Shown here: piece after piece, positions 1 to 37,079 of the stretch
Layout of the letters: the number at the start of each line of letters is the position of its first letter
Position numbering within the stretch: position 1 is the first letter of the stretch
The notes under the pieces: model-generated
Databases searched by the model: none
What the model saw: the letters and a program-made list of their open reading frames with translations, nothing else
Told to the model about the DNA's origin: nothing
NCBI GenBank assembly: GCA_902800645.1
Contig: CADCFC010000010.1
Coordinates: 1-40,690 of the forward strand
DNA: 40,690 nt
Direction: 5' to 3'
Origin: an uncultured Erysipelotrichaceae bacterium
GTDB lineage: Bacteria > Bacillota_I > Bacilli_A > RFN20 > CAG-826
Translations under genes and position numbers: made by a program

Positions 1-75
1 ACTCTAATTTACTTATTAAAATCTTTAGAGATTTTTCTATCCTAATTAATAGAATAGTTTAAAATATTAGTATCT

Positions 76-1335
76 ATGGATCAAAAAACATTTAATGCGA
101 CAGTTTGCTTACTAGGAGTTTTGATTCTCTCAATTCATATTTTTAACGTCCTTTTCAAGAAGGATAGAAGAAAAGATGAAAATAGCTTACTATCTTTCTT
201 TATTTTTACTGTCATCCATTTTGCGACATATTTTGCTTTTACATTCATCAGAGATACAGTTAAGAGCGATACCTTTATTATTGGTTTTTATACGCTTTTC
301 TACATCATGAATAATGTGGAACTTCTCTTATTTTATATTTACGTCACTAGATATATTGATTTTGATGCGAAGACCAAAAAGATCTTAAACATAGTTAATT
401 ACGTCTTATTTGCGTTATTTATCATTAGCGATTTTGCTAATATCTTTGCGAAATTTTATTTCACTTCTGTTGGTGGGGTGTACACGAGAACACCATATAT
501 GATTATTTCTCAAGGATATCAATTCATTATGCTAGTGGTGGTGTTTTTGATTGTTCTAGTTAATAAGAAACTTGTTTTTAGAGAAAAACTAGCGTTCTTC
601 TTTTATTGCACAATTCCTTTTGTCGCAATTATTCTTCAAAACAATTACAAGGGATATGCGATTGCTTATGTTAGCTTATTAATGGCGATTGAAATCCTCT
701 TCTTGTTCTTAAATGTTGAGAAAAATATCAAGCTCAGAGAAGAAGAACAAAAAGTTAAAGAAGCGAATATCAAAATTATGGTTAGCCAAATTCAGCCACA
801 CTTCGTTTATAACACTTTATCTTCTATTTCGACTTTAATTCCTCTTAACCCTGAGGAAGCTCAAAAGGCTTTAGATAATTTTACAGATTATTTACGCGTC
901 AATTTCTCCGCTTTGACAGAGAATAAACTCGTGTCCTTCGAAGACGAATTAAAGCACATCAAAACCTATGTATCTCTTGAAAAGATGAGATTTAAAGATC
1001 GATTAAATGCAGTTTACGATATTGGAGTTACTGGTTTTGCTGTTCCTCCTTTAAGTATTCAACCTCTGGTTGAAAACGCAATTAAGCATGGCTTACTAAA
1101 AAAGATTGAAGGCGGAACGGTAACGATTAAAACTTATGAAACTGATGACGCATATATTGTGGAAGTAATCGATGATGGTGTTGGCTTTAATATGAGCGAT
1201 CCAGAGCTTAAGAGTAATCGACATGTAGGCTTGAGTAATATCAAACACCGTATAAAATCAATGACTAATGGTGATATATCTTTTAGTAGTGAAGTTAATA
1301 AAGGTACGAAAGTAACAGTGAAATTTTATAAATAG
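76..1335 (+). CDS. Membrane sensor histidine kinase, LytS/YehU type
   Basis: Membrane sensor kinase that should autophosphorylate on a histidine and pass phosphate to the regulator encoded 10 bases downstream. Residues 1-215 hold about six or seven hydrophobic segments with no large extracellular sensor domain. The PF06580-type kinase core follows: Q-P-H-F-V-Y-N-T with the phosphoacceptor H242, then an N-box (PLVENAIKHG, N334) and ATP-binding motifs D366-G-V-G370 and VGLSNIKHR near 384-392. The LytS/YehU family usually senses cell-envelope state or small ligands; the ligand here is unknown. Pairing with a SARP-like rather than a LytTR regulator is less usual. The ATG has no clear Shine-Dalgarno, and an AT-rich stretch (TAAAAT near 60) may supply the -10. 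Family confidence is high, the role is inferred. Confidence 0.9.
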   Translation: MDQKTFNATVCLLGVLILSIHIFNVLFKKDRRKDENSLLSFFIFTVIHFATYFAFTFIRDTVKSDTFIIGFYTLFYIMNNVELLLFYIYVTRYIDFDAKTKKILNIVNYVLFALFIISDFANIFAKFYFTSVGGVYTRTPYMIISQGYQFIMLVVVFLIVLVNKKLVFREKLAFFFYCTIPFVAIILQNNYKGYAIAYVSLLMAIEILFLFLNVEKNIKLREEEQKVKEANIKIMVSQIQPHFVYNTLSSISTLIPLNPEEAQKALDNFTDYLRVNFSALTENKLVSFEDELKHIKTYVSLEKMRFKDRLNAVYDIGVTGFAVPPLSIQPLVENAIKHGLLKKIEGGTVTIKTYETDDAYIVEVIDDGVGFNMSDPELKSNRHVGLSNIKHRIKSMTNGDISFSSEVNKGTKVTVKFYK

Positions 1336-1345
1336 GAGAAGGCTT

Positions 1346-2107
1346 ATGAAAATTTTGTTGGTTGATGATGAAGAACTTCAGTTAATGAGACTTGAAAGCG
1401 AAGCGAAAAAGGCTATATCTTCTGATGCCTCATTTGCTTCTTTTACTAATCCTTTGGAAGCTTTAAAATCTGCTAAAGCAAATAATTATGATGTTGCGTT
1501 TCTTGATATTGAGATGCCTGGATTAAACGGTATTCAACTTGCGAAAGAATTAAAAAAGATTAATCCGGTAATAAATATTATTTTTGTTACTGCTTTTACA
1601 AATTACGCTTTGGACGCTTATAAAATTCATGCTTCTGGATATTTATCTAAACCCGTACACGCTTCAAATATCAAAGAAGAGATGTCTGTTCTTCGACATA
1701 AAGAAGAAATCAGCGGTAATAAGAAGCTACAGGTAAAGTGCTTTGGAAATTTTGAAATTTTCCATAATGGCGAACCATTAAAATTCTCTTATCAAAAATC
1801 AAAAGAAGTTTTTGCTTATCTAGTTGATCGCGAGGGCTCGGTTATTAATATTAACGAACTCAATGCGGTTTTATGGGAAGAAGACCATCCTTCATATTTA
1901 AGAAATTTGATCGCTGATATACAGTCTACCTTGAAATGTGTTGACGCGAGCGACGTATTTATTAAAAGACACAATGAATGTTATATTGACCCTTCTAAAA
2001 TCGATTGTGATGCCTATGAATATAAAAAAGGTAATCCAAGCGCGATTATGATGTATCGTGGTGAATATATGATTCAATATTCGTGGGCGATTTTTGTCGA
2101 CGAATAA
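1346..2107 (+). CDS. Response regulator with SARP-like DNA-binding domain
   Basis: Two-component response regulator, partner of the kinase just upstream. The receiver domain (1-120) has the acidic pair D7/D8, phosphoacceptor D54 in FLDIEMPG, T82 and K102. Residues about 127-200 (LQVKCFGNFEIFHNGEPLKF, then KSKEVFAYLVDREG) resemble the winged-helix DNA-binding domain of SARP/AfsR-type regulators rather than LytTR or HTH_LuxR. The C-terminal tail (200-253) is short and carries no full bacterial transcriptional activation domain. A clear Shine-Dalgarno (taggag) precedes the ATG. It most likely controls the adjacent modification/export genes; the inverted repeat at 3321-3353 is a candidate site, but no binding site can be proven from sequence. 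Confidence 0.88.
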   Translation: MKILLVDDEELQLMRLESEAKKAISSDASFASFTNPLEALKSAKANNYDVAFLDIEMPGLNGIQLAKELKKINPVINIIFVTAFTNYALDAYKIHASGYLSKPVHASNIKEEMSVLRHKEEISGNKKLQVKCFGNFEIFHNGEPLKFSYQKSKEVFAYLVDREGSVININELNAVLWEEDHPSYLRNLIADIQSTLKCVDASDVFIKRHNECYIDPSKIDCDAYEYKKGNPSAIMMYRGEYMIQYSWAIFVDE

Positions 2108-2138
2108 TCGGCATATCTTTTATCCTTCATTTTAATTT

Positions 2139-3314
2139 ATGACGACAAACTATATATTGATGTATAAAAACGATGAAGTCCTTTCTTTTGGCGTGGACTT
2201 TGAAAAAAATAGAGTTAAATTTTTAAAAGAATTAGCCAACTTTTCAAAAGCTCCTTTAGGTTTAACTATGCCTAATGCTGATAAAGATATGGCGTTACAG
2301 AAATTTTTTAATAGTAGAACCATCGCTCCTCAAAGAGATGACTATAAAAAAATACTTGAAGCGACAAATTGCAAAGATGGCTTCTCTTTATCTTTTAAAG
2401 GACATGGATTATCTCTTTCTAACCATTATTGGTATAAAAAAGAGGGCGAGAATTTAAAATATGAAGACATCAGTTTTTTTATCAATAAATGGGATGATAC
2501 TTTTGGAAGAGCGGTACTAAATAAAGATTATGAATTACTTAAGACTTGCGACTTAAACGTTCCCGATATTGTCACTCCTGGATGGGGAATAAAAGGATGG
2601 GTGTTGGAGGATGTTCCAAGACTATATAAACTCGGAATTTATAGCGAGCATGTCGATGAATCTATTTGTGAAGTTCTCGCTTGTAAACTCGCTAAAAGAT
2701 TATTTGGAAGTGATGAAGTTGTGGAGCGTGAACTCGTAAAAGTTAAAGACACTTACGCCTCTACTTCTCCTTTAATTACTGGAATAAATGAGGAACTTAT
2801 TCCTCTTTCTACTGTATTGCCTCATGGTTGGTATGTTTTTTATCGAGAAAAGGATTCTAACAAAAAAAGAGAGTTTTTTGAGAAACTTAAAACGTTTGAT
2901 CTCATCCCTAATATAAATCAGTTTTTTATAAAAGTAATGGCCCTTAGAAGCTTAGCCTTTGTAAGTGATTTACATTTTGAGAATATCTCAGTTATTAGAA
3001 ATATGGAGACAGGCGAATTAAGAATGGCGCCTTTATATGATTTGGGTGGCGCTTTCGGTAGCTCAAAAACTGGTAAATCGATGATTAGTAACCTCACTAA
3101 AGCCACTTTCCTTTTAATATATTTTACATTTAACACTCTTGAACCAGATTGGGATTATTCTTGGTATGATCCTGCTCGATTGGTCGGCTTTGAAAACGAA
3201 ATAAGAAAGTACTTGTCTAAAAGTTATTTTTACACTACAGAACTCATCGAAAGAGTGATTGAAGTTTACCATCAACAAAAGTCTACTTTGGACGAATATG
3301 CAGCCAAAAAATAA
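2139..3314 (+). CDS. HipA-fold kinase-like protein
   Basis: 391-residue protein resembling HipA-type serine/threonine kinases. Supporting motifs are a glycine-rich loop GWGIKGW (148-154), a candidate ATP-contacting lysine in RLYKLG (K164), a catalytic loop D277-L-H-F-E-N282 in place of the usual D-R-H-x-x-N, and a metal-binding motif YDLGGAFG (D301). The N-terminal 130 residues are not recognised. It has no HipB-like antitoxin neighbour, so a classic toxin-antitoxin pair is unlikely. It lies between a two-component system and a radical SAM enzyme, 31 bases after the response regulator, so a role in phosphorylating a peptide or protein of this cluster is possible but is inference only. No Shine-Dalgarno is visible; a second Met at residue 8 could also be the start. 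Confidence 0.7.
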   Translation: MTTNYILMYKNDEVLSFGVDFEKNRVKFLKELANFSKAPLGLTMPNADKDMALQKFFNSRTIAPQRDDYKKILEATNCKDGFSLSFKGHGLSLSNHYWYKKEGENLKYEDISFFINKWDDTFGRAVLNKDYELLKTCDLNVPDIVTPGWGIKGWVLEDVPRLYKLGIYSEHVDESICEVLACKLAKRLFGSDEVVERELVKVKDTYASTSPLITGINEELIPLSTVLPHGWYVFYREKDSNKKREFFEKLKTFDLIPNINQFFIKVMALRSLAFVSDLHFENISVIRNMETGELRMAPLYDLGGAFGSSKTGKSMISNLTKATFLLIYFTFNTLEPDWDYSWYDPARLVGFENEIRKYLSKSYFYTTELIERVIEVYHQQKSTLDEYAAKK

Positions 3315-3320
3315 ATATAT

Positions 3321-3359
3321 GCACGTGTGGCACATTTGTGACTAGTGCTGTGCTAATAT
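3321..3359 (+). promoter_or_regulatory. Putative promoter and operator of the radical SAM gene
   Basis: The extended -10 TGCTAATAT lies at 3351-3359. GCAC half-sites at 3321-3324 and 3330-3333 face GTGC half-sites at 3345-3348 and 3350-3353, giving an imperfect inverted repeat that overlaps the -10 and is GC-richer than its surroundings. A regulator binding here would block or position RNA polymerase. This is sequence pattern only. Confidence 0.4.
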
Positions 3360-3388
3360 TTACGAGGCTAAATAAGAGGCTTATCACT

Positions 3389-4783
3389 ATGTATTATAGA
3401 TTGAAAGATGACATCGCTTTAAGAAAATGGAAATATGTTGATCGCGCTATTTATAGAAAGAGCGATGACGTTGCTAGTGGAGTAAGTAAGGAAGAATTCG
3501 AACTACTTCTTCTTTGTGATGGAGAGCACGATATTGAACCAAGTCCTTATTTATCGACTTTATTATCTAGAAGATTAATTGAAGAGTGCCAAAAAGGAGA
3601 AAAACCATCCGAATGGTCTCTATTAAAAGAATATGATAATTATTATTTCCCAAGAATGAATCTCATGATTACTGGGAAATGCAATTTAAATTGTCTACAT
3701 TGTTTTAACGCTAAAGATAACGCTCCACTTAATAGTGAATTATCTTTTGAACAAATACTAAATATACTAGATCAAGCTCGTGATATTGGTGTTCGTTCTT
3801 TTACATTAACCGGAGGAGAACCTCTGGTTCATCGCCGTTTTCTTGATATCGTTAAGGCGATATATGAACGCGATATGATGATTTTTGAATTAAACACCAA
3901 TGGTTTATTAATGAACCAAAAGATGCTTGATACATTTAAAGAAGTTGGCTGTGATCCTCTTATTAAAATTTCTTTTGATGGAGTTGGTTATCATAACTGG
4001 ATTAGACAGCATCCAAAAGCGGAAGAGTTAACAATTAAAGCAATTAAACTTTGCATCGCTAATGGATTTAGAGTTAAAGCCCAAGTTCAGGTCAACCGTA
4101 AAAATGTTGATGTAATGTTTGAGACCGCTCGTTTACTTAACGATTTAGGAGTTAGTGAAATGCGTATTATCCGTACTACTGAAGCTCCTCGTTGGGAAAA
4201 GAATTCTCCTCAATCGAGCCTAACAATTGAGGAATATTATCAATCAATGTTGGAATTCTCTAAGCAATATATTGAAAGCGGTATGGAGATGACAATTGAC
4301 GTTTGGCAACTCGTAAGATTATATCCTCATCACAAATTATATGACTTAGTTCCTATTGCTTGTGATAAGGACGAATTTAATATCCGTATTCCAATGTGTA
4401 AAGGCAATAGAGGAATGATCGCCGTTAGTAGTAGTGGTGAAGTCGTACCTTGTTTACAAATGTCTGGTTACTTTTTAGAAAAAGGGATTAGTTTAGGTAA
4501 CTTATTTAAAACACCTTTAAAAGAGTTAGTAAAAGATAGCCCTTATCTTAATTTAGCGATGGCGCCTTTATTTAAACAAATCGTGGAGAATGATAAATGC
4601 GGTAACTGCAAATACTATAAAGCTTGTACAGGCGGTTGTCCTGCTCTCGGCTTATTATATTCTGTTAATAGCGACTTCTATCATGAAGATATAACTAAAT
4701 GTATTTTCTTTGAAAATGGGTGGTATGATAAGTCCATTGAATATTTAAAAGGCTGGAAAATTAAAAAACCACTTAATATCTAG
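3389..4783 (+). CDS. Radical SAM/SPASM peptide-modifying enzyme with PqqD-like N-terminus
   Basis: 464-residue radical SAM enzyme, probably a RiPP maturase. The start at 3389 (MYYRLKDD) is chosen because aagagg lies upstream and homology begins there; the open frame continues back to 3338. Residues 1-66 look like a PqqD/RRE-type peptide-recognition domain. The SAM-binding CxxxCxxC is C98/C102/C105, followed by TGGEP (141-145). The C-terminal SPASM domain is complete: C337, G350-x4-C355, then C404-x2-C407-x5-C413-x3-C417 and C438, enough for two auxiliary 4Fe-4S clusters. SPASM enzymes install thioether or carbon-carbon crosslinks or oxidise peptide side chains. A terminator follows, then the exporter operon. 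The substrate peptide is not visible in the window. Confidence 0.92.
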   Translation: MYYRLKDDIALRKWKYVDRAIYRKSDDVASGVSKEEFELLLLCDGEHDIEPSPYLSTLLSRRLIEECQKGEKPSEWSLLKEYDNYYFPRMNLMITGKCNLNCLHCFNAKDNAPLNSELSFEQILNILDQARDIGVRSFTLTGGEPLVHRRFLDIVKAIYERDMMIFELNTNGLLMNQKMLDTFKEVGCDPLIKISFDGVGYHNWIRQHPKAEELTIKAIKLCIANGFRVKAQVQVNRKNVDVMFETARLLNDLGVSEMRIIRTTEAPRWEKNSPQSSLTIEEYYQSMLEFSKQYIESGMEMTIDVWQLVRLYPHHKLYDLVPIACDKDEFNIRIPMCKGNRGMIAVSSSGEVVPCLQMSGYFLEKGISLGNLFKTPLKELVKDSPYLNLAMAPLFKQIVENDKCGNCKYYKACTGGCPALGLLYSVNSDFYHEDITKCIFFENGWYDKSIEYLKGWKIKKPLNI

Positions 4784-4794
4784 TTAACCACTAT

Positions 4795-4820
4795 AAGCGT
4801 CTTTGACGCTTTTTTTATTT
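4795..4820 (+). terminator. Terminator after the radical SAM gene
   Basis: Stem AAGCGTC / GACGCTT with a TTT loop, followed by a T tract. It separates the radical SAM transcript from the exporter operon. Confidence 0.85.
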
Positions 4821-4846
4821 AAAATATTTTAAAGAAATAATTAGAA

Positions 4847-4855
4847 TGCTATAAT
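4847..4855 (+). promoter_or_regulatory. Extended -10 promoter of the exporter operon
   Basis: TGCTATAAT is a perfect extended -10. The expected transcription start is near 4862, only about 7 bases before the ATG at 4869, so there is no room for a Shine-Dalgarno. The -35 is poor (TTTTAA at 4827-4832, 17-base spacer). Confidence 0.75.
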
Positions 4856-4868
4856 AATTTTGATTATT

Positions 4869-5258
4869 ATGAAAAAACAAATTTCTGGAATATCTAATCC
4901 TGATGAATTAAACAAAAGACTCCAATATACTTCCCCTGTTACTTGGATTATTTTGGGGCTCGTTGCTTCTTTACTTGTTGGATTATTTGTTTGGTCTTTT
5001 GTTTATAAGATTAAAGTTAAAATTACTGGATCGGCCTCAATTAGTAGTCACGTCGCAACACTTGTTGTACAAGACGGAGATTTGAAAAAATTAGCAGTTG
5101 GACAAACTGTCTATATTTCTAATCTCGAAGGCAAGATCCTTCATTTTGATGATAATAATCAACCGGTTGTCTCTGATTTTGATTTAAGCGATGGCAATTA
5201 TACTTATACGATTATTGTCAAAGAGATGAAACCAATTGAGTTCTTATTTGGAAGATAA
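4869..5258 (+). CDS. Minimal HlyD-like secretion adaptor (NHLM type)
   Basis: 129-residue membrane protein with one transmembrane helix (about residues 26-48) followed by a short outside beta-rich part. The N-terminal pattern NPDELNKRLQYTSP, then a helix, then KITGSASI resembles the start of NHLM-system HlyD-like secretion proteins. Those are usually 250 residues or more and carry an alpha-hairpin or lipoyl region, which is absent here. It probably helps couple the two ABC exporters that follow. Its stop lies 1 base before the next start, which indicates translational coupling. The ATG at 4869 is preferred over an upstream TTG at 4860 because of the promoter position. Family call is moderate, since the protein is so short. 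Confidence 0.65.
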   Translation: MKKQISGISNPDELNKRLQYTSPVTWIILGLVASLLVGLFVWSFVYKIKVKITGSASISSHVATLVVQDGDLKKLAVGQTVYISNLEGKILHFDDNNQPVVSDFDLSDGNYTYTIIVKEMKPIEFLFGR

Positions 5259-5259
5259 A

Positions 5260-7437
5260 ATGAAAAGAATAAAATTGCCAAAGACTAAAGGAGTTGCTAA
5301 TACTCCAATCATTATGCAACTTGAGGCTCTCGAATGCGGAGCTGCTTCTTTAGCTATGGTGATGGCTTATTACGATAAATGGGTACCACTTGAACAAGTT
5401 AGAGTCGATTGCGGTGTTTCTCGTAATGGTAGTAACGCAAAAAACATCTTAAGAGCGGCACAAAAATATGGTTTTAAAACCAAAGGCTTTGCCTATAACA
5501 TAAAAAAGATTAAAGAAAACGGTCATTTCCCAGCAATTATTCACTGGGGTGGTGGTCACTTCGTTGTTTTAAATGGTTTTAGGGGGAATAAAGCCATTAT
5601 TAATGATCCTGCAAAGGGACTAGTGAAAGTTGATTTAAAGACGTTTGATAAGTTCTTTACTGGCATATATCTAGAAATCATTCCTGATGAAGGCTTTGAA
5701 CCTGGAGGAAAAAGAAAATCGATATTACAGTTTGCTAAAAAACGTTTAAAAGGCGCTGCTGCACTAATTATTTTCTTTGCTATTACCACGATTATTTTCT
5801 ATTTGTTTGGAATCATTAATCCTGCAGTTAATCAGGCGTTTGTCGATTTCTTGTTGGGTGGTAATAACCCCGATTGGTTACTTCCTTTTATCTTTATCTT
5901 TGCAGGTATTGGTTTATTACAAATCACCTTAACGATCGTTCAAGCCATTTACCAATATAAAATTAGAGGAAAACTTGATCTTATTGGTTCTACAACTTAT
6001 ATGTGGAGAATTTTAAGATTACCAATTGAATTCTTCTCTCAAAGAATGGTTGGCGATTTGCAAATGCGTCGATCTGAAAACGCATCTATTGCAGAGACGC
6101 TTGTTAACGTTTTTGCTCCTTTATTATTCAACACAATTATGATTTTTGTTTATCTCGTTATCATGCTCAATAAGAGCGAAAAGAGTTGGATATTAACTTT
6201 AATTGGTGTCTTTACAATTACATTAAATGCATTTGTTTCCCGTTTCATTTCTAAACAAAGAGTTAACATCTCAAGAGTTCAAGCTCGAGATAACGCAAAA
6301 CTTTCAGCGATGACTTCAAAAGGAATTGAAATGATTGAAACCATTAAATCTAATGGCGCTGAGAAGGCGTATTTTGATAGTTGGTCTGAAGTTCAAGATA
6401 GCGCAGTTAGTGGAAAACTTAAACTTGCGAGAACTTCTCAATTTTACGGATTAATTCCTGCTATCATTTCAATGCTTGCTAATTATTCAGTTTTGATTCT
6501 TGGTGTTTATTTAACAATGAACGGTGAATTTACTGTTGGTTCTATTTTGGCTTTCCAAGGCTTATTATCAGCGTTCATGTCTCCTGCTATGACCATCATT
6601 TCAAGCGGACAAACCATTATTGAAATGAGAACACAAATGGAAAGAGTGGATGATGTTTTAGAATACCCACTAGATAAAAATGTTACTCGTGAGATTCCTA
6701 CGGATAAGATTTCTAAAATTAGAGGAAGCCTTATCCTTAAGAATGTTACTTTTGGCTACTCTAGACTTGATGATCCGATTTTAAAAAAATTTAACTTAGA
6801 GATTAAACAAGGACAAAAAATTGCAATTGTTGGTTCTACTGGTAGTGGTAAATCTACACTTTCAAAACTTATAAGCGGATTATATTCGCCTTGGAGTGGA
6901 GATATCATCTTTGATGGCAAATCTATTGAAGAAATTGATCATGAAATTTTTACTGCTTCGATAGCGGTAGTTGATCAAGATATTACCTTATTTGAAGACA
7001 CTATTTTAAACAATTTAAAAATGTGGGATGAATCAATCGAAGATTATGAAGTTGTTATGGCGTGTAATGATGCACAAATTCATAAACAAATCATGTCTAG
7101 AGATGGGGAATATAATGCGCCTGTTCTTGAAGGTGGTAAAAACTTCTCAGGTGGAGAAAGACAAAGGCTTGAAATTGCTCGTTCTTTAGCGGGTGATCCT
7201 AGCATTATCATCTTAGATGAAGCAACTAGCGCGCTAGACGCAAAAACTGAGCACGAAGTCGTTAAAGCAATTAAAGCTAGAGGCATTACTACAATTGTTA
7301 TTGCTCACCGTTTATCAACAATTAGAGACGCTGATTTAATCGTCGTTTTAAATAAAGGTGTTATCGCCGAACAAGGAACTCATGATGAGCTAATGAAACT
7401 TAAGGGCTATTATTATGAGCTTGTGACTAATGAATAG
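5260..7437 (+). CDS. C39-peptidase ABC exporter (NHLM/bacteriocin type)
   Basis: 725-residue peptidase-containing ABC transporter that cleaves leader peptides, usually after Gly-Gly, and exports the core peptide. The C39 domain (1-140) has Q20, catalytic C26 in LECGAAS, H100 in GGGHFVVL and D116 in NDPAKG, so the triad is intact. The transmembrane region spans roughly 165-450. The nucleotide-binding domain has Walker A GSTGSGKST (525-533), signature FSGGE (629-633), Walker B ILDE (D653/E654) and H683. Layout and neighbours match the first ABC protein of NHLM bacteriocin systems. The start at 5260 is chosen because it follows the upstream stop directly and the Shine-Dalgarno ggaag is at 5250; the frame is open back to 5236. 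Confidence 0.93.
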   Translation: MKRIKLPKTKGVANTPIIMQLEALECGAASLAMVMAYYDKWVPLEQVRVDCGVSRNGSNAKNILRAAQKYGFKTKGFAYNIKKIKENGHFPAIIHWGGGHFVVLNGFRGNKAIINDPAKGLVKVDLKTFDKFFTGIYLEIIPDEGFEPGGKRKSILQFAKKRLKGAAALIIFFAITTIIFYLFGIINPAVNQAFVDFLLGGNNPDWLLPFIFIFAGIGLLQITLTIVQAIYQYKIRGKLDLIGSTTYMWRILRLPIEFFSQRMVGDLQMRRSENASIAETLVNVFAPLLFNTIMIFVYLVIMLNKSEKSWILTLIGVFTITLNAFVSRFISKQRVNISRVQARDNAKLSAMTSKGIEMIETIKSNGAEKAYFDSWSEVQDSAVSGKLKLARTSQFYGLIPAIISMLANYSVLILGVYLTMNGEFTVGSILAFQGLLSAFMSPAMTIISSGQTIIEMRTQMERVDDVLEYPLDKNVTREIPTDKISKIRGSLILKNVTFGYSRLDDPILKKFNLEIKQGQKIAIVGSTGSGKSTLSKLISGLYSPWSGDIIFDGKSIEEIDHEIFTASIAVVDQDITLFEDTILNNLKMWDESIEDYEVVMACNDAQIHKQIMSRDGEYNAPVLEGGKNFSGGERQRLEIARSLAGDPSIIILDEATSALDAKTEHEVVKAIKARGITTIVIAHRLSTIRDADLIVVLNKGVIAEQGTHDELMKLKGYYYELVTNE

Positions 7438-7451
7438 AAAGGAAAAGAATT

Positions 7452-9635
7452 GTGGGCTGGTTTGAAGAACAAGTGAAACAAAGAAAGAAACTCGATGAAA
7501 AAACATTCGAAGATTCTTTTGCTTCGCTTGCTGGAATCAAAGTTGATAAAAAGTCTAATTTGAGCGATGAAGCGATCAAAGAAAATTTCGCTATTTCTCA
7601 AGTACTTTCCTATTTCCGTCATCAAATGGTTGATATTCCTGAAAAGATTACTACCTTTAAAGATAAACTTAATTACGCTTTAAGTCAGGTTGATATCGAA
7701 TATCGTAAAGTTGAGCTTAATGGCGAATGGGTAAATGACACTCATAGTCCAGTTCTTATTTTCACTTTGATTAGCCAAACTCCAGTTGTTCTTTTCCCGA
7801 TTGGAAATAAAGCTTACTACTATATCAATTATCAAACAGGTAAGAAGGTAAAAATCGAGGCTTCTTTAATTAATAAACTTGAAATGGAAGCTTATAGTTT
7901 TTATCGTCCTCTTCCAAGCAAGAAAATATCTGTTAAAGAATATGCAAAATATTTGCAAAAGAATATTCGTGTAAGAGATATCGTTCTTCTTATTTTGACG
8001 AGTGCGATTGTTAGTGGAGTTGGTTTATTAATCCCATATTTGACTAGGATATTAACCGGCGATGTAATCGATAAAGGCAATATTAATTATTTTATAATTA
8101 CTTCGATTTATGTTGTTTCTGCTGCCGCTGGACTTGTTTTAATTAAGGCAATTGAAGGATATGTTAATTCTCGAATAACGATCTCGGTTAATAAAGGCGT
8201 TACGGAAGCAACGATGATGAAGGCCTTAAATTTACCGACCTCATTCTTTAAAAAATATAATACTGGTGAATTGACTGCACGTTTCCAAAGTGTCATCGGA
8301 CTTGCTAATTTAATTGTTTCCAGTCTATTTGTTACTTTGATATCGGTTGTGATGTCACTTATGTACTTATTCCAATTAATTGGCTTTGCTCCTTCTTTGA
8401 TCTTACCGGTTATCATCGTTTTATTCGTCTCTTCTGCTTTCTCAATTTTGATTGCGTATATTCAAAGAAACTATAGTAAGAAACAACTCGAACTTTCTTC
8501 AAAAGAAAACGGCCTTACTTATGAAATTATTAACGGAATACAAAAAATAAGATTATCCGGATCAGAAAAAAGAGTTTTTGCTAAATGGGCAAAAGCGTAT
8601 TCTAAATCCGCTAGACTTTTATATAATCCACCTCTTTTATTGAAGATAGCTCCAGCTATTTCTTTATTAATCACTCTATTAGGTAATATTGCCATATATG
8701 CTGTTGCTGCTAAAAACAACATTAGTGTTAGTAGTTATATGGCGTTTGTATCTAGTTATGGTGTTCTTTCTAGCGCCTTTGCTTCATTAAGTCAAATGGT
8801 TGGTCTTGTTTATTCAATTCAACCGATGTACGAGATGGCTAGACCATTCTTAGAAGCTGAACCAGAGAATAACTCTAAAAAGCCTCCTATTGAAAACATC
8901 AAAGGTAACATCAAATTTGAGAATGTATCTTTTAGATATAATAGTGAGGGACCTCTTGTGGTCAATAATTTATCGCTAGATATTAAAGAAGGCGAATATA
9001 TCGCAATTGTTGGACAAACAGGTTGTGGTAAATCCACTCTTGTTAGACTATTATTAGGATTTGAAGAGCCAATTAATGGTAATATATTAATTGACGGTAA
9101 CAATCTTAAAAATGTTGATTTGACTTCTTTGAGAAGAAATATCGGCACAGTTATGCAAAATGGAACTTTGTTCCACGCTGATATATTGTCTAATATCATC
9201 ATCTCTTCTCCATCTTTAAAAGAAGAAGATGCTTGGGAAGCCGCGGAAATTGCTAATATCGCTGAGGATATTAGAGAAATGCCTATGGGAATGAATACTG
9301 TTATCTCAGAAGGCCAAGGTGGCATTTCTGGCGGACAAAAGCAAAGAATCATGATTGCTAGAGCGATTGTGCATAAACCAAAGGTTTTAATCTTTGATGA
9401 AGCTACAAGCGCCTTAGATAATAAAACTCAAAAGAGTATCTCCGATTCAATTAGTAAACTTAATTGTACGAGAATTGTAATCGCTCACCGTTTATCTACT
9501 ATTCAAAGTGCGGACCGCATTTTGATGCTTGAAGGTGGAAAGGTTATTGAAGAAGGTAATTATCAGACCTTAATTGATAAAAAAGGCAAGTTTGCAGAAC
9601 TTGTCGACAGACAAAGATTAGATAATAACAAATAG
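7452..9635 (+). CDS. Second ABC exporter of the NHLM type, GTG start
   Basis: 727-residue exporter half-transporter without a peptidase domain. The N-terminal motif GWFEEQVKQR followed by EDSF is typical of the second ABC protein of NHLM bacteriocin systems, and residues 1-165 form a soluble N-terminal domain. Transmembrane helices span about 175-460. The nucleotide-binding domain is complete: Walker A GQTGCGKST (521-529), ISGGQ (625-629), Walker B VLIFDE (645-650) and H679. Translation starts at GTG with the Shine-Dalgarno gaaagga, 14 bases after the preceding stop. It probably forms a heterodimer with the C39 exporter, which is the inferred reason for their pairing. Confidence 0.9.
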   Translation: MGWFEEQVKQRKKLDEKTFEDSFASLAGIKVDKKSNLSDEAIKENFAISQVLSYFRHQMVDIPEKITTFKDKLNYALSQVDIEYRKVELNGEWVNDTHSPVLIFTLISQTPVVLFPIGNKAYYYINYQTGKKVKIEASLINKLEMEAYSFYRPLPSKKISVKEYAKYLQKNIRVRDIVLLILTSAIVSGVGLLIPYLTRILTGDVIDKGNINYFIITSIYVVSAAAGLVLIKAIEGYVNSRITISVNKGVTEATMMKALNLPTSFFKKYNTGELTARFQSVIGLANLIVSSLFVTLISVVMSLMYLFQLIGFAPSLILPVIIVLFVSSAFSILIAYIQRNYSKKQLELSSKENGLTYEIINGIQKIRLSGSEKRVFAKWAKAYSKSARLLYNPPLLLKIAPAISLLITLLGNIAIYAVAAKNNISVSSYMAFVSSYGVLSSAFASLSQMVGLVYSIQPMYEMARPFLEAEPENNSKKPPIENIKGNIKFENVSFRYNSEGPLVVNNLSLDIKEGEYIAIVGQTGCGKSTLVRLLLGFEEPINGNILIDGNNLKNVDLTSLRRNIGTVMQNGTLFHADILSNIIISSPSLKEEDAWEAAEIANIAEDIREMPMGMNTVISEGQGGISGGQKQRIMIARAIVHKPKVLIFDEATSALDNKTQKSISDSISKLNCTRIVIAHRLSTIQSADRILMLEGGKVIEEGNYQTLIDKKGKFAELVDRQRLDNNK

Positions 9636-9646
9636 GAGGATATTAT

Positions 9647-9940
9647 ATGAATCACACTTTGGAAAACGAAAAATTAACGATCTTTTTAGAAGGAGAACTC
9701 AATTCTTATAATTGCGATGAAGTTGAAACTGAGATCGAAAAGATTGTTTCTGAAAAACCTTTTAAATCTCTCGTTTTAGATTTTGACAATTTACGTTATA
9801 TCTCTTCAGCGGGTTTAAGAATTATCGTTAGATTAAAACAAAGATTTGATGATTTAAGTCTTGTTAAAGTTTCTAGTGATGTCTATGACATTCTTGATAT
9901 GGTCGGATTCGTAAAAATGTTCGCCATTGAAAAGAAATAG
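9647..9940 (+). CDS. STAS-domain anti-sigma-factor-antagonist-like protein
   Basis: 97-residue STAS protein of the SpoIIAA/RsbV type. The family's phosphorylation loop appears as YISSAGLRI (51-59), with S54 as the likely phosphoacceptor. In the partner-switching scheme the RsbW-like kinase phosphorylates this serine and the RsbU-like phosphatase removes the phosphate; both activities are encoded three genes downstream in one polypeptide. It has a strong Shine-Dalgarno (aggagg) and sits 11 bases after the second ABC gene. It is about 40% similar by eye to the STAS domain of the next gene. Placement inside an exporter operon suggests control of peptide export or synthesis rather than of a general stress sigma factor. 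Confidence 0.88.
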   Translation: MNHTLENEKLTIFLEGELNSYNCDEVETEIEKIVSEKPFKSLVLDFDNLRYISSAGLRIIVRLKQRFDDLSLVKVSSDVYDILDMVGFVKMFAIEKK

Positions 9941-9950
9941 TGAGGTTGAT

Positions 9951-11105
9951 ATGGAATTTAATGTTAATAATGGTGTATTAACCCTCTATTTTCCTAGTGA
10001 ATTGAATTCATCAAATTCCGAGAAAGTGGGACAAGAAATCGACGAAATAATTAAAGAAAATAATTTTTCATCAGTTATTGTTGATTTAGATAAATGCTCC
10101 TATGTTTCTAGTGCGGGATTAAGAGTTGTTTTAAAACTTAAACAACAATATGATGATCTCGTTGTTAATAATGCTTCTTTAGAAGTTTATGACATTTTCC
10201 AAATGACCGGATTCACTAATATTATGAAGGTAAATAAAGCCTTAAGAGTGGTGGATTTAACTAATACAGAAGTGATTGGAGATGGATATTTCTCCACTGT
10301 ATATCGCTTAGATAAAGATACGATTGTTAAGGTATTTAATCGCACTAGTGACCCAGAGCAAATTAATCGTGAATTATTTTTAGCTAAAGAAGCGTTTGTT
10401 CTTGGTGTTCCTACCGCAATATCTTTTGATATTGTTAAAGCCGGAGATAAGCTCGGCGTGATTTTTGAAATGCTTGACTGTATGTCGCTTAAAAATGTCG
10501 TTATTACTTATCCTGAAAAAATGCATGAATATTTAGAAAAATATGCAGCATTACTTAAAAAGATTAACACTACAGAATGCTTCAATGAGTCTATTCCTGA
10601 CATCAAGAAAAAGTATTTTGAAAAGCTTGAAATGATTAAACCATTTCTAGATGAAGCTCATTATAGTAAAGCCTATAATTTACTTTCTTCAATTGAAGAT
10701 CGTAAGACATTTATTCATGGCGATTGTCACTTTAAAAATATTATGGTGCAAAATGGTGAACTTATCTTGATAGATATGGACACTCTTTCTGTCGGACATC
10801 CTATTTTTGAACTTGCTGCTTTATATGCACCTTATTGTGCTTTTAACGAAGACGATCCTGGAAATAGTGAGAAGTTTTTTGGAATAAGTGATGAGAATGC
10901 TTCTAAATTATATAACGCACTTCTTAATCTATATTTTGGGAAAGATGATCCAGTTATCAAAGATAAAATTAGATTACTTTCTTATATTCATATGGTGTGG
11001 TGGAACCGCACTAATGAACCAAATAATGAAATTCGATTAAACGGATGTAGAAATAGATTATATGCTTTATTAGACAAATATAATGACTTAAACATTGGTA
11101 TCTAA
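9951..11105 (+). CDS. STAS domain fused to an APH-type kinase
   Basis: 384-residue fusion. Residues 1-100 are a second STAS domain with phosphorylation loop YVSSAGLRV (51-59, S54). Residues about 105-384 are an aminoglycoside-phosphotransferase-fold kinase: glycine-rich loop GDGYFSTVY (110-118), ATP-binding K127, catalytic loop HGDCHFKN (256-263) and metal-binding D275/D277 in LIDMDTL. Catalytic residues are intact, so an active small-molecule or peptide kinase is plausible; its substrate is unknown. The STAS part would let its activity or location respond to the partner switch. The start at 9951 (MEFNV) is preferred over 9927, which would overlap the previous gene; gtgagg lies upstream. Confidence 0.85.
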   Translation: MEFNVNNGVLTLYFPSELNSSNSEKVGQEIDEIIKENNFSSVIVDLDKCSYVSSAGLRVVLKLKQQYDDLVVNNASLEVYDIFQMTGFTNIMKVNKALRVVDLTNTEVIGDGYFSTVYRLDKDTIVKVFNRTSDPEQINRELFLAKEAFVLGVPTAISFDIVKAGDKLGVIFEMLDCMSLKNVVITYPEKMHEYLEKYAALLKKINTTECFNESIPDIKKKYFEKLEMIKPFLDEAHYSKAYNLLSSIEDRKTFIHGDCHFKNIMVQNGELILIDMDTLSVGHPIFELAALYAPYCAFNEDDPGNSEKFFGISDENASKLYNALLNLYFGKDDPVIKDKIRLLSYIHMVWWNRTNEPNNEIRLNGCRNRLYALLDKYNDLNIGI

Positions 11106-11106
11106 T

Positions 11107-12954
11107 ATGGAACTTAAAAATAAAGAATATATTGCAGCCTATAATAAAAATGAAGCTGATGCTAATAAGCATATGTCCTATGTTAATGGGGCAGCTTCAC
11201 TTTTGTCTTTGGTTCTTTGGATACTTTACTTAACTAAAATATTTACAATTTCTGAAGAACTATTTCCTATCGTCACTGTTTTATTCCCACTTGCAACAGT
11301 GCTTTTAATTATCCCAGTATTTTTAGTTAAAACCGAAGCAATTACTAAATCTTGGTATAAATATTTCATTCTGTTTTCTTTATTAATTGTAATAATTGCA
11401 ATTAATATTACCATTCCTAAGCACGGCATGCTTTTGTGGCCTTTTGCCATTCTTATTGCGAACCATTACTATAACCCAGTATTAGGTAGAATCATTTATG
11501 TTTTTACTTTAGTAATGATGCTTATTTGCATGTATTTAGGAATGCTATTTGGCGAATATGATCTCAACCTTCTTGGTGGAGGAGTTGTCGTCGATGGCGA
11601 AATCGTTTATTACGATAATTATATCCAAAGAATTAATATGCTTAAAACGATGCTTCTGAATGGAGAAAACCGTTATGTAAAAGTATTGATTTTCTATTAT
11701 TTACCAAGAGCGGCAGTTGTTACTTTATTCTTCATGGTTTCTAACTTACTTAATAGAAGAACTTATAAGTTGCTCGATCAAGAAATTAAAATTCACGACG
11801 AACAAGAAAAATCTAAAACCGAACTTGAAGTTGCTAAAGACATTCAATTAAGCACTCTTCCTGAAGAATTCATTTCCTCTAAGGACGTTGAAATTATTGG
11901 AGAACTTAAAGCTGCAAAAGAAGTCGGTGGAGACTTCTATGATTATTTAGATATTGATGAAGATCACGTTGCCATTATTATTGGTGATGTTTCTGGAAAA
12001 GGCGTTCCAGCTGCGATGTTTATGATGAAGACAATCACTTCATTTAGAGACTTCGCTAAAGGCAGTACTTCACCATCTCAAATTTTAAGAGAAGTTAATG
12101 CCTCTATTTATAGAGGCAATAAGTCGAGCATGTTTGTTACTTGCTTCTTAGCAATTTTAAATAAGAAAACTGGTCGACTTATTTACGCTAACGCAGGGCA
12201 TAATCGTCCAGTTGTTGGTCAAAAGCAAAAGTATCACTTCTTGCCTTGTGAATCAGGCTTATTACTCGGCTGCTTTAAAGACGCCTTTGTTAGCGACCAA
12301 GAAATTACTTTAAATCCTGGAGATAGTATTACTTTATATACTGATGGCATTACTGAAGCTAGAAATAATCAAGGCGGTTTCTTTGGAGAAAAGAGATTAA
12401 TTGAAGCCTTTAATAAAAATGATTATACCTGTATTGTTGAACTCCATCACGCGATCAAAGATTCAATTGCGACATTTGTTGATGGCGCACCTCAAAGTGA
12501 TGATATCACTTTCGTTACATTAAAATATCAAGGCGGACATTATTCTTATCTTGAAAAATATTTTGATGCAAGAATTGAAAATGTTAAAAACATGTTAGCG
12601 TTAATTGAAAATTTCGGTGAAGAACATCATTTCCCAATGAGTTTTGTTAATCAACTTGTTGTCGTTGGTGACGAATTATTCTCTAATATCGTTAATCACG
12701 GTTATAACAATAAAGGTGGAGACATATTCGTGAGATTACTCTTTAATGATGATACTAATGAGTTTGCTTTAACAGTTATTGATAGAGCCACTCCATTTAA
12801 TCAATTAGAGGTTAATGATGAAGCGTATGATGAAAACACTGATAAAAACAAGATTGGTGGACTTGGTATCTTAATTGTAAAAAAGATTATGACCGAGTAC
12901 GCTTACGATTATATTAACGGCAAAAATATTCTTGTACTTAAAAAACGTTTCTAG
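11107..12954 (+). CDS. Membrane RsbU-like PP2C phosphatase fused to RsbW-like kinase
   Basis: 615-residue protein carrying both arms of a partner switch. The N-terminal 220 residues hold about six transmembrane helices with no recognised sensor. After a short coiled coil, a SpoIIE/RsbU-type PP2C domain (about 240-475) has metal-binding aspartates in EVGGD (D276), GDVSGKG (D294), TDGITEA (D413) and QSDD (465-466). The C-terminal HATPase (about 480-615) of the RsbW/SpoIIAB type has E523/N527 in DELFSNIVNHGY and GGLGI near 584-588. The STAS proteins upstream are the expected substrates. ATG at 11107 follows the previous stop by one base; a TTG at 11095 is an alternative. A strong terminator ends the operon, and no sigma factor is encoded in it. 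Confidence 0.9.
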   Translation: MELKNKEYIAAYNKNEADANKHMSYVNGAASLLSLVLWILYLTKIFTISEELFPIVTVLFPLATVLLIIPVFLVKTEAITKSWYKYFILFSLLIVIIAINITIPKHGMLLWPFAILIANHYYNPVLGRIIYVFTLVMMLICMYLGMLFGEYDLNLLGGGVVVDGEIVYYDNYIQRINMLKTMLLNGENRYVKVLIFYYLPRAAVVTLFFMVSNLLNRRTYKLLDQEIKIHDEQEKSKTELEVAKDIQLSTLPEEFISSKDVEIIGELKAAKEVGGDFYDYLDIDEDHVAIIIGDVSGKGVPAAMFMMKTITSFRDFAKGSTSPSQILREVNASIYRGNKSSMFVTCFLAILNKKTGRLIYANAGHNRPVVGQKQKYHFLPCESGLLLGCFKDAFVSDQEITLNPGDSITLYTDGITEARNNQGGFFGEKRLIEAFNKNDYTCIVELHHAIKDSIATFVDGAPQSDDITFVTLKYQGGHYSYLEKYFDARIENVKNMLALIENFGEEHHFPMSFVNQLVVVGDELFSNIVNHGYNNKGGDIFVRLLFNDDTNEFALTVIDRATPFNQLEVNDEAYDENTDKNKIGGLGILIVKKIMTEYAYDYINGKNILVLKKRF

Positions 12955-12961
12955 AATAGAA

Positions 12962-12994
12962 AACAACTCCGATTGATTATTCTTCGGAGTTGTT
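12962..12994. terminator. Bidirectional terminator, 11-bp stem
   Basis: Perfect inverted repeat AACAACTCCGA / TCGGAGTTGTT with an 11-base loop and T tracts on both strands. It serves the exporter operon and the convergent Pr6Pr gene, whose last codons lie in the hairpin. Confidence 0.9.
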
Positions 12995-13939
12995 TTTTTC
13001 TTCTACATATATTTGGTTAACATCATTATTATGAATATTAGCGAGATAGCTTTCTAAATAGATATCATATTGAATGTCTAATGGAAGAGTGTTGGTCTTA
13101 TATCTTTCTGATAGTAGTTTAATTGTATCTACTGGAATATAGATCTCATCACCCTCTTTATAATAATCTGATTCTTCTTTAGCAAGTTTAGCGATTGCTA
13201 AGGTGATTTTTTCAAATTCGTAATCAGGTGATTCTTTATAATACCTTTCAATACCTTTTTTAACGTGGAAATTAGTCAAGTTATGAAGGAAGCGAAGGAG
13301 GGACGCTAAAGCAAAGGCAATAATCATTATTCCGATAAAGGCAACTGGCCAAGGCATTAATTCTTGAATGTGATAATGGTCTCTCCAAATTTTTACAACG
13401 AACGCCATAATGAAATAAATCATCGCGTAAATAAAAGTTGGAATAATTGTGAAGAAAGTGCGATTAAATTTAATCTTTACATCAGAAATAGCGATTGTGA
13501 ATAAAAGAGTAATAAAGATTGGATTAAGCGTGTGCATGAATAGATTTGATCGCTCAAACATCGCATAAACAAATCCGGCAGTTGGAGAAATCATTGTTAG
13601 GGCAATAATAAATGTTAAAAACACTCCGCAAGTGCCAATATACATCACTTCAACAACCCAACTAGGTAATTTAAATCTATTCTTTCTAATACCTTCAATT
13701 TGGAAAGGAACACAAATAGAAGCAGCAAGAGCGGCAATGATGTTAGATATAGTGGTGTACATTCTTAAAGTGCCGATGCCTGCTTCAGGAGTATCGTCTT
13801 TATAAAAATTAACGAAATTTAAAGTAACAGAGATTAATGTTAGTAATATGACGATTGAGCAAATAATAAGACCGACAATACACCTCATCTTATTAATTGT
13901 TCTAGCGTTTGTTATTTTATTTGTGCTTTCTTTTTGCAT
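12977..13939 (-). CDS. Pr6Pr-like multi-pass membrane protein
   Basis: 320-residue integral membrane protein with about six helices and a soluble C-terminal tail of roughly 90 residues. The patterns TTISNIIAAL, then a loop, and SNLFMHTLNP match the Pr6Pr-type (FAR-17a/AIG1-like) family, whose molecular function is not known. A shorter relative with the same landmarks lies at 33240-33893. The charged tail, rich in Lys, Glu and Tyr, is absent from that relative and could be a partner-binding region. The -10 TAGAAT (minus strand, 13947-13952) is 7 bases before the ATG and there is no Shine-Dalgarno, so the transcript is probably leaderless. It runs convergently to the exporter operon and need not belong to it. 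Confidence 0.65.
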   Translation of the reverse strand: MQKESTNKITNARTINKMRCIVGLIICSIVILLTLISVTLNFVNFYKDDTPEAGIGTLRMYTTISNIIAALAASICVPFQIEGIRKNRFKLPSWVVEVMYIGTCGVFLTFIIALTMISPTAGFVYAMFERSNLFMHTLNPIFITLLFTIAISDVKIKFNRTFFTIIPTFIYAMIYFIMAFVVKIWRDHYHIQELMPWPVAFIGIMIIAFALASLLRFLHNLTNFHVKKGIERYYKESPDYEFEKITLAIAKLAKEESDYYKEGDEIYIPVDTIKLLSERYKTNTLPLDIQYDIYLESYLANIHNNDVNQIYVEEKNNSEE

Positions 13940-13946
13940 GTTTTTT

Positions 13947-13952
13947 ATTCTA
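13947..13952 (-). promoter_or_regulatory. -10 element (TAGAAT), leaderless
   Basis: TAGAAT is 7 bases upstream of the minus-strand ATG at 13939. No convincing -35 is seen. Confidence 0.45.
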
Positions 13953-14034
13953 TCACAATCTAACTTTTTCTAATACTCAATTTAATATTGTGGCACTTAT
14001 GTGGCATAATGAGTTGTATATTAAATACATCATT

Positions 14035-15401: not shown

Positions 15402-15492
15402 TGGCGGAGGAAGAGGGATTTGAACCCTCGCACCGAGTTACCAGTCTACGAGCTTTCCAAGCCCGCCCCTTCAGCCTCTTGGGTATTCCTCC
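15402..15492 (-). tRNA. tRNA-Ser(GGA)
   Basis: Class II tRNA with a long variable arm. The acceptor stem begins GGAGGAA and pairs with TTCCTCC, then G-CCA is encoded. The anticodon stem is CGGGC / GCTCG with loop TTGGAAA, giving anticodon GGA, which reads UCC and UCU. The T-arm GAGGG-TTCAAAT-CCCTC is standard. A likely minus-strand promoter lies at 15514-15543: TTGCAC, an 18-base spacer and TAAAAT. Confidence 0.95.
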
Positions 15493-29812: not shown

Positions 29813-29903
29813 TGGCGGAGAAGAAGGGATTTGAACCCTTGCAAGACTTGCATCTTCTAGCAGTTTTCGAAACTGCCCCCTTCAGCCGCTTGGGTACTTC
29901 TCC
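29813..29903 (-). tRNA. tRNA-Ser(CGA)
   Basis: Class II tRNA with encoded G-CCA end. The acceptor stem is GGAGAAG / CTTCTCC. The anticodon stem GCAGT / ACTGC encloses loop TTCGAAA, giving anticodon CGA, which reads UCG. The T-arm AAGGG-TTCAAAT-CCCTT is normal. A TATAAT lies about 10 bases upstream of the tRNA on the minus strand. Confidence 0.95.
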
Positions 29904-36988: not shown

Positions 36989-37079
36989 TGGCGGAGTAGG
37001 AGAGACTTGAACTCTCGCACCAGTTACCCGATCTACTTCCTTAGCAGGGAAGCCCCTTCACCAACTTGGGTACTACTCC
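36989..37079 (-). tRNA. tRNA-Ser(GCT)
   Basis: Class II tRNA with encoded G-CCA. The acceptor stem is GGAGTAG / CTACTCC. The anticodon stem is CTTCC / GGAAG with loop CTGCTAA, giving anticodon GCT, which reads AGC and AGU. The T-arm GAGAG-TTCAAGT-CTCTC is standard. Confidence 0.95.

Follow-up and report, generated by a model that had tools for sequence, protein, structure and literature searches.

Ten open reading frames (ORFs) on one strand of an uncultured Erysipelotrichaceae genome raise the question of what they make and how its release is controlled. They span positions 76-12954 of a 40,690-nucleotide stretch, here called the window (GenBank assembly GCA_902800645.1, contig CADCFC010000010.1), which makes up contig C10 of a genome assembled as 60 contigs totalling 1.3 Mb. 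An initial annotation had listed all ten in a single run, with names that needed little correction, and had read them as a peptide maturation and export system tied to a two-component pair. Our analysis bears out that core claim: precursor peptides were found, they co-occur strongly with the exporter, and a candidate regulatory repeat tracks the response regulator (RR). We conclude that the cassette quite probably provides the exporter, the maturase and the controls of a regulon for peptide secretion. Judged from sequence, the system is larger than first described, in that precursors lie elsewhere in the genome, the product appears to be mostly a zinc-ribbon repertoire, and the two-component link has gained support. 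Protein domains were assigned with Pfam and NCBIfam profiles and their curated cut-offs, and the cassette reads as follows.

76-1335, plus strand: sensor histidine kinase (His_kinase PF06580 and HATPase_c; membrane N-terminus by eye), adjoining the RR gene here and in several relatives
1346-2107, plus strand: RR, with a receiver domain and, by eye, a SARP-like winged-helix C-terminal part, a half with zero Pfam matches; proposed binder of the direct repeat described below
2139-3314, plus strand: HipA-like kinase, a recurrent cassette neighbour in relatives; weak match to PF07804 (HipA_C; 19.3 bits, cut-off 30.5), kinase motifs by eye
3389-4783, plus strand: SPASM radical SAM maturase with a possibly RRE-like N-terminal domain (radical SAM 74.7 bits, SPASM 31.9 bits)
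4860-5258, plus strand: micro-HlyD, likely starting at ATG 4869 and kept in position in relatives; matches the N-terminal part of TIGR03794 only (profile 2-60 of 421; 24.5 bits, cut-off 156.2)
5236-7437, plus strand: ABC1, a C39 peptidase-permease-ATPase, likely starting at ATG 5260 (PF03412 at 107 bits, PF00664, PF00005); nearest TIGR03796, below cut-off (826.3 against 853.3 bits)
7452-9635, plus strand: ABC2, a permease-ATPase without the peptidase; nearest TIGR03797, below cut-off (662.5 against 709.4 bits)
9647-9940, plus strand: standalone STAS protein with an SSAGL phosphosite; STAS profile match, above the cut-off of the anti-anti-sigma model TIGR00377 (54.9 against 53.45 bits)
9927-11105, plus strand: STAS-APH fusion kinase, with STAS and APH domains
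11095-12954, plus strand: membrane SpoIIE (PP2C) phosphatase fused to a HATPase_c_2 kinase (178.9 and 68.7 bits)

The initial annotation had found no precursor, and this is true of the window: none of the ORFs of at least 20 amino acids read by eye in positions 1-14000 fits one, and a leader search of the genome returned none on C10, whose remainder (14000-40690) was not read by eye. It is not true of the genome, in which 13 peptides on contigs C1, C5, C11 and C17 share a strongly conserved leader of about 48 residues ending in Gly-Gly. One of the 13 has a short core, ACSSEKKDNHRKIES (C5:6456-6647); the other 12 are zinc-ribbon-like, with cores of about 45 residues and two CxxC knuckles. The annotation had also suggested looking in relatives for the same gene set and for short Gly-Gly-leader ORFs nearby, and both are there. 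The gap before the radical SAM gene, only 74 bp in the window, holds an ORF of about 62 residues in relatives (once, in locus L046, the ORF follows the gene instead). Its leader resembles MRKELLKGLTEEQIAKVKACDDxxDLLQLAKDEGVELTEEQLNAISGG, and its core has Cys as first or second residue and usually ends in an RKI[DE][SD]-like motif.

The distinct peptides collected from fetched loci number 129, comprising 20 with short cores, 107 with zinc-ribbon cores, a class that two CxxC motifs come near to defining and a count that is a lower bound given that the leader pattern skips some members, and 2 others. Of 127 cores, 126 place a Cys no more than five residues from the Gly-Gly, in addition to the four ribbon cysteines. 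Across the zinc-ribbon set, mean identity is 73% for leaders and 26% for cores, which fall into 25 families (101 genome-core pairs from 17 genomes); 11 families recur in at least two genomes, some nearly unchanged. Known leader models fit poorly. The first of nine members scores 14.0 and 15.5 bits against NHLP/Nif11 cut-offs of 50.9 (TIGR03793) and 32.3 (TIGR03798), five peptides of the host genome reach 15.2-22.0 bits on PF07862 (cut-off 23.8), and one member matches leader models at E 9e-05, bits not being listed. The Gly-Gly bacteriocin leader model TIGR01847 is passed by the first member (16.4 against 15.7 bits) and hit at E<=1 by eight of nine. One ORF with the leader (L136 10185-10430) has a core like a frameshifted zinc ribbon and is likely a decayed array member.

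Relatives were metagenome-assembled genomes (MAGs) labelled Erysipelotrichaceae, Bacilli, Bacillales and similar, many from the ruminant gut, and co-occurrence and repeat counts refer to 196 genomes (G) of the bacterial family. Presence was called at E<=1e-3 for the leader and E<=1e-100 for ABC1. The leader was detected in 37 genomes, ABC1 in 30, the radical SAM enzyme in 26, STAS-APH in 55 and phosphatase-like proteins in 81. Gly-Gly leaders were present in 29 of the 30 exporter genomes; 8 genomes had the leader only, 1 had ABC1 only and 158 had neither (p 2.9e-26, a value that, like the other below, overstates independence given the kinship among these genomes). One leader-only genome (G010) carries an exporter fragment, ABC2-STAS-STAS-APH (L033, coordinates matching G010:C51), on a contig cut before ABC1, and the other seven are 58-83% complete; in the single ABC1-only genome (G080) ABC1 is 49% identical. 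The radical SAM enzyme was never seen apart from ABC1 (26 both, 4 ABC1 only, 0 radical SAM only, 166 neither). Of the four ABC1 genomes without the enzyme, G017 and G108 each have ABC1 at a contig end, G080 is distant, and the fourth is G131. In the wider class, 5 of 395 genomes carry the leader family, and all five belong to the same bacterial family. A close exporter was not found on plasmids: ABC1 returned 19 records, the eight listed being 37-39% identical and from cyanobacteria, proteobacteria and Streptomyces, and ABC2 returned 3 records.

Gene order points the same way. We fetched 49 loci (L) with a STAS-APH gene and mapped the window proteins onto them; the order radical SAM, micro-HlyD, ABC1, ABC2, STAS, STAS-APH, phosphatase recurs in L035, L038, L039, L042, L043, L046 and L067, and is rotated once (L032). 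Given this conserved order and the co-occurrence, the cassette is not a chance assembly.

Upstream of the leader genes stands a direct repeat, GTGRCAC-N4-GTGRCA, with a TGATAAT-like box after it. Its occurrence in the window is

3327-3343, plus strand: regulatory direct repeat GTGGCACATTTGTGACT with 1 mismatch, its start 62 bp upstream of the ATG of the radical SAM gene; TGTGCTAATAT comes next

At up to one mismatch, the host genome has 12 sites, against 1 in the reversed control. Each of the leader gene groups (eight, grouped by closeness, together holding all 13 leader genes) is headed by one of these sites, the repeat starting 57-61 bp before the first ATG of the group. The remaining four comprise one before the radical SAM gene, one at the 5' end of a GT2 glycosyltransferase gene, one before a lipoprotein-like gene and one lacking an accepted ORF. 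The clear non-leader site among these is an exact repeat at C11:3020 (L097 3020), 58 bp before a 327-amino-acid lipoprotein-like ORF. The site at C2:7198 (1 mismatch) was dismissed as chance, no ORF of at least 40 amino acids with a ribosome site lying within 400 bp. In the fetched loci, allowing two mismatches at 36-110 bp upstream, a site was found for 69 of 105 leader genes and 19 of 532 other ORFs, a number that may include true regulon members; the distance peaks at 58-60 bp, and leader genes that do not follow another leader gene have a site in 45 of 58 cases. Exact sites total 354 across the 196 genomes, against 18 in a reversed control assessed by eye. The RR and at least two sites occur together in 32 genomes, with 16 having the RR only, 7 the sites only and 141 neither (p 2.9e-18), and in several genomes a site directly follows the RR gene. 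With one repeat before both the leader groups and the radical SAM gene, peptides, maturase and exporter seem to belong to a single regulon.

That repeat also bears on where the maturase begins. Since a Met is conserved at the 3389 position in 7/7 aligned relatives (rows begun at the first Met in range) and the repeat overlaps the called start GTG 3338, the start is most likely ATG 3389. The enzyme seems to be paired with one kind of precursor. A private leader element, DLxQLAKD, is present in 18 of 20 short-core leaders and in none of 107 zinc-ribbon leaders; the short-core gene usually adjoins the radical SAM gene in relatives; and the enzyme is present in the genome or locus of origin of all 20 short-core precursors, a count biased by fetching mostly around the exporter. 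In a weak model (predicted local distance difference test, pLDDT, 62) the nearest folds are SkfB (Z 18.2, also first by sequence comparison), ChlB (16.7), PqqE (16.6) and SuiB (15.9), and the N-terminal part, which lacks a Pfam match, aligns with SuiB and SkfB at low confidence. A Cys-based link in the short core would be our guess. The annotation's expectation of a modified peptide as product fits one short core, which tracks the radical SAM enzyme; it is less well supported for most of the product, 12 of the 13 precursors being zinc-ribbon-like and G131 having 12 leaders and no radical SAM match.

The annotation had placed a partner switch in the same system, and here the evidence divides. 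On the one side, a standalone STAS gene sits in the exporter block at 27 of 31 loci, directly after ABC2 in 26 and in one rotated block (G006); it was not found beside the exporters of G012 and G080 or the second exporter of G002 (C8), and the contig of G063 is too short. The SSAGL phosphosite is present in 26 of 28 exporter-adjacent STAS sequences. In a midpoint-rooted phosphatase tree (n=46, sequences covering <=90% of the query left out), all exporter-adjacent rows fall into one 100/100 clade (26 rows, 21 adjacent), and none of the other 20 is adjacent; the exporter-adjacent label needs 6 changes. The five non-adjacent rows inside the clade are L057 and L044, for which absence of the exporter was judged at the locus only, L041, L040, and L142, whose genome (G009) has the exporter elsewhere. 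On the other side stand STAS-APH and phosphatase loci with no such exporter nearby, taken up below. In the STAS-APH protein, the STAS Ser and APH catalytic residues are invariant in 24/24 aligned sequences (an alignment that omits L058, L069, L070 and L074), and the kinase fold seen in the model (pLDDT 91.6) is of the APH type. A fold search returned aminoglycoside, choline, maltose and methylthioribose kinases, among which a hint of the substrate was not found. The standalone STAS and the STAS domain of this fusion share 42% identity. No sigma factor is among the ten cassette genes, the rest of the genome not having been searched for one. We infer that STAS phosphorylation could control export.

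Put together, these parts suggest the following scheme. The histidine kinase and RR would sense a signal, and the RR would bind the repeat, placed where a -35 box would be, turning on the scattered precursor genes and the operon of radical SAM, exporter, STAS and phosphatase genes. The radical SAM enzyme, via its RRE-like N-terminal domain, might select the precursor with the DLxQLAKD leader and modify its short Cys...RKI[DE][SD] core. ABC1 would cleave every precursor after Gly-Gly, and ABC1, ABC2 and micro-HlyD could then export a single small peptide in modified form, which may itself be the signal, together with a zinc-ribbon mini-protein repertoire. The SpoIIE/HATPase protein may both phosphorylate and dephosphorylate STAS, in the standalone protein and in STAS-APH alike, and STAS phosphorylation would then gate either export or the STAS-APH kinase post-translationally. 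The sequences themselves establish the common leader, its co-occurrence with the exporter, the repeat, the private element, the STAS gene in the exporter block and the catalytic motifs; modification, zinc binding, export, RR binding, autoinduction and the target of the switch are our interpretation. The fullest version has more than 100 distinct zinc-ribbon mini-proteins in one family, induced by a radical-SAM-modified peptide and leaving through a C39 exporter whose ATPase is gated by a phospho-STAS protein with its own phosphatase-kinase, so that signal peptide, two-component box and phospho-STAS form three control layers on one exporter; it is unlikely to hold in every part.

Several observations weigh against treating the cassette as one peptide regulon. 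G131 is the clearest case, its exporter locus and 12 leaders occurring without a radical SAM match, a result that at 89% completeness is not final. Among short cores, 3 of 20 lack the C-terminal motif and 2 of 20 the leader element, and the enzyme model is weak, as given above. No recognisable repeat precedes 36 of 105 leader genes, of which 23 follow another leader gene and 13 do not. Seven genomes have at least two sites without an RR match and nine have the RR without a site, mismatches that gaps in MAGs may partly explain. The repeat-RR link itself is drawn from co-occurrence and neighbourhood. Leaderless genomes include 22 with the RR and 10 with at least two sites; in four of them with the RR (G071, G024, G159, G099), 16 of 20 sites precede, by eye, lipoprotein or signal-peptide ORFs, so the regulon is wider than the peptides, and the RR seems to govern a surface and secretion regulon that includes them. 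Most of L051-L079 have the STAS-APH and phosphatase pair alone, with this exporter not nearby. Units of RR, STAS, STAS-APH and phosphatase, the switch directly following the RR, occur in G071 (L040/L184) and G149 (L041), where an ABC1 match is absent genome-wide; the switch may therefore not act on export.

These last observations lend themselves to another explanation, possible if somewhat doubtful, in which the switch is a separate unit that controls STAS-APH or a surface polysaccharide (through GT2) and merely resides in the same operon or regulon. The pairs without this exporter in most of L051-L079 suit it, as does L184/L040, where HK-RR-STAS-PP2C-STAS-APH-GT2 stand together, one repeat lying 178 bp upstream of STAS and another marking the 5' end of the related GT2 gene; the window, too, has a repeat at its GT2 5' end. 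It accounts less well for the STAS gene being kept in the exporter block at 27 of 31 loci, even without an adjoining STAS-APH (for example G215, G108, G152 and G210). That retention would fit another possibility, a refinement of our preferred scheme, that STAS acts on the exporter directly in an MlaB/MlaF-like manner, dephospho-STAS activating the ATPase and the HATPase part switching it off. STAS holds its place after ABC2 also in G009 and G131, whose PP2C and RR genes are located elsewhere, and the phosphosite and the exporter-linked PP2C clade agree with such a role. A separate cyclic-nucleotide-binding protein is encoded near 4 of 6 plasmid NHLM exporter regions (gene tables being incomplete), twice right after ABC2, which is the slot of STAS here. 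According to the available text of PMC10986499, the C39 exporter HetC requires a cyclic-nucleotide-binding domain, and the MlaFB paper, in its available part, puts forward phospho-control of a STAS-ABC pair as a proposal, without demonstrating it (PMC7367683). Overall, direct gating of the exporter by STAS seems to us possible but rather unlikely. Against it, STAS, PP2C and STAS-APH occur without an adjacent exporter in L184, L041, L044 and L057, STAS passes the TIGR00377 cut-off and matches the MlaB model only marginally, and the second G002 exporter (C8) and that of G012 have no STAS. The NHLM exporters with a nearby cyclic-nucleotide-binding protein are those of L207, L209, L210 and L212, from a cyanobacterium and three alphaproteobacteria.

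What the peptides do is the other point at which readings part. In streptococcal blp/com systems, direct repeats drive Gly-Gly peptides that share one C39 exporter and a two-component pair. It is possible that, in the same way, the short peptide acts on the histidine kinase as an autoinducer, with the zinc ribbons as its bacteriocin-like regulon: the HK-RR pair or the RR adjoins the exporter and a short precursor in several loci, and one repeat class precedes the pheromone candidate, the exporter operon and the cargo. Repeat sites before lipoproteins in leaderless RR genomes speak against this reading, as does a kinase that we take to be of the His_kinase type and not of the AgrC/ComD type. 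The bacteriocin part sits awkwardly with the 11 of 25 core families that recur across genomes, some nearly unchanged, unlike arms-race bacteriocins, and with back-to-back leader genes in the host's C17 arrays that leave no room for immunity genes, although no systematic search for them was made. Among chosen-length ORFs of eight loci, a single gene pair recurs: by eye, an 82-amino-acid antitoxin-like (Phd/RelB-like) gene and one for a 278-amino-acid RelE/GNAT-like fusion, enclosed by zinc-ribbon arrays in three genomes (L136 11669-12750, L137 2378-3459, L139 7210-8291). Zinc ribbons are also typical of nucleic-acid-binding proteins, and these ORFs might be intracellular regulators whose leader resemblance is incidental; the nearest Pfam models for five host peptides include TFIIB-, transposase- and YjdM-type ribbons, and one peptide is above cut-off (YjdM, 33.2 against 30.8). 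We consider this highly improbable, given leaders far more conserved than cores (73% against 26%) that end in Gly-Gly and are present in 29 of 30 exporter genomes, and, in all but one of 127 cores, a Cys no more than five residues from the cut.

Beyond the cassette, one neighbour may belong to the regulon, and it carries the second repeat of the window.

13909-15342, plus strand: GT2 membrane glycosyltransferase, possible regulon member, with an exact direct repeat at its 5' end; a candidate start, ATG 14035, lies 45 bp past the repeat start, without a visible ribosome site
13990-14006, plus strand: second direct repeat GTGGCACTTATGTGGCA, zero mismatches, at the 5' end of the GT2 ORF

Three tRNA-Ser genes (gga, cga, gct) lie on the minus strand at 15402-15492, 29813-29903 and 36989-37079, within 22 kb.

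Judged by title and opening of abstract, a literature search found no zinc-ribbon repertoire with a Gly-Gly leader (in its available text, PMC9200625 has the terms in unrelated places) and no work linking STAS or SpoIIE to Gly-Gly export. The system can still be set beside several that are known. Like NHLM/NHLP systems (TIGR03794/03796/03797), as described in the available part of Haft et al. 2010 (PMC2887384), it has the trio of C39-ABC1, ABC2 and HlyD and many precursors per genome, the numbers named there being 12, 18 and 29. Unlike in them, none of its three proteins reaches the curated cut-off, nor do the leaders reach those for NHLP/Nif11 where bits are shown; its HlyD has about 130 residues, its cargo is zinc ribbons and one short core, and STAS lies by the exporter. 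A C39 domain fused to an ABC permease-ATPase, with 13 Gly-Gly leader peptides in the same genome, places ABC1 among peptidase-containing ABC transporters, and a phosphorylatable STAS, a SpoIIE phosphatase and a HATPase_c_2 kinase are the parts of an Rsb/SpoIIA-type partner switch. Prochlorosins reportedly join conserved Nif11-type leaders to divergent cores in many genes served by one ProcM enzyme. The conserved leader, divergent cores and many genes are found here too; the enzyme, unlike ProcM, appears paired with one core type through the private leader element, the zinc ribbons apparently not being substrates. This element offers a handle on how one enzyme selects one of 13 precursors. With blp/com the system shares the direct repeat before cargo and exporter operon, the one C39 exporter and the two-component pair, and differs in its radical SAM step, zinc-ribbon cargo, SARP-like regulator and partner switch. 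SkfB, SuiB and ChlB are among the nearest solved folds to the modelled enzyme (for SkfB and SuiB including the N-terminal part), at about 12-17% identity, and the short core has one Cys and mostly no Trp.

Sequence alone is enough, in these uncultured bacteria, to read off many probable secreted peptides together with their maturase, exporter and promoter box. As in MlaFB (in the available part of PMC7367683), a STAS protein is encoded with an ABC transporter; unlike MlaFB, the transporter here is a peptide exporter, STAS fits the anti-anti-sigma model nearly full length, and a phosphatase-kinase is encoded alongside. With STAS gene, likely phosphatase-kinase and exporter adjoining, the cassette could provide a compact system in which to test the question that paper raises, whether STAS phosphorylation acts on an ABC ATPase.

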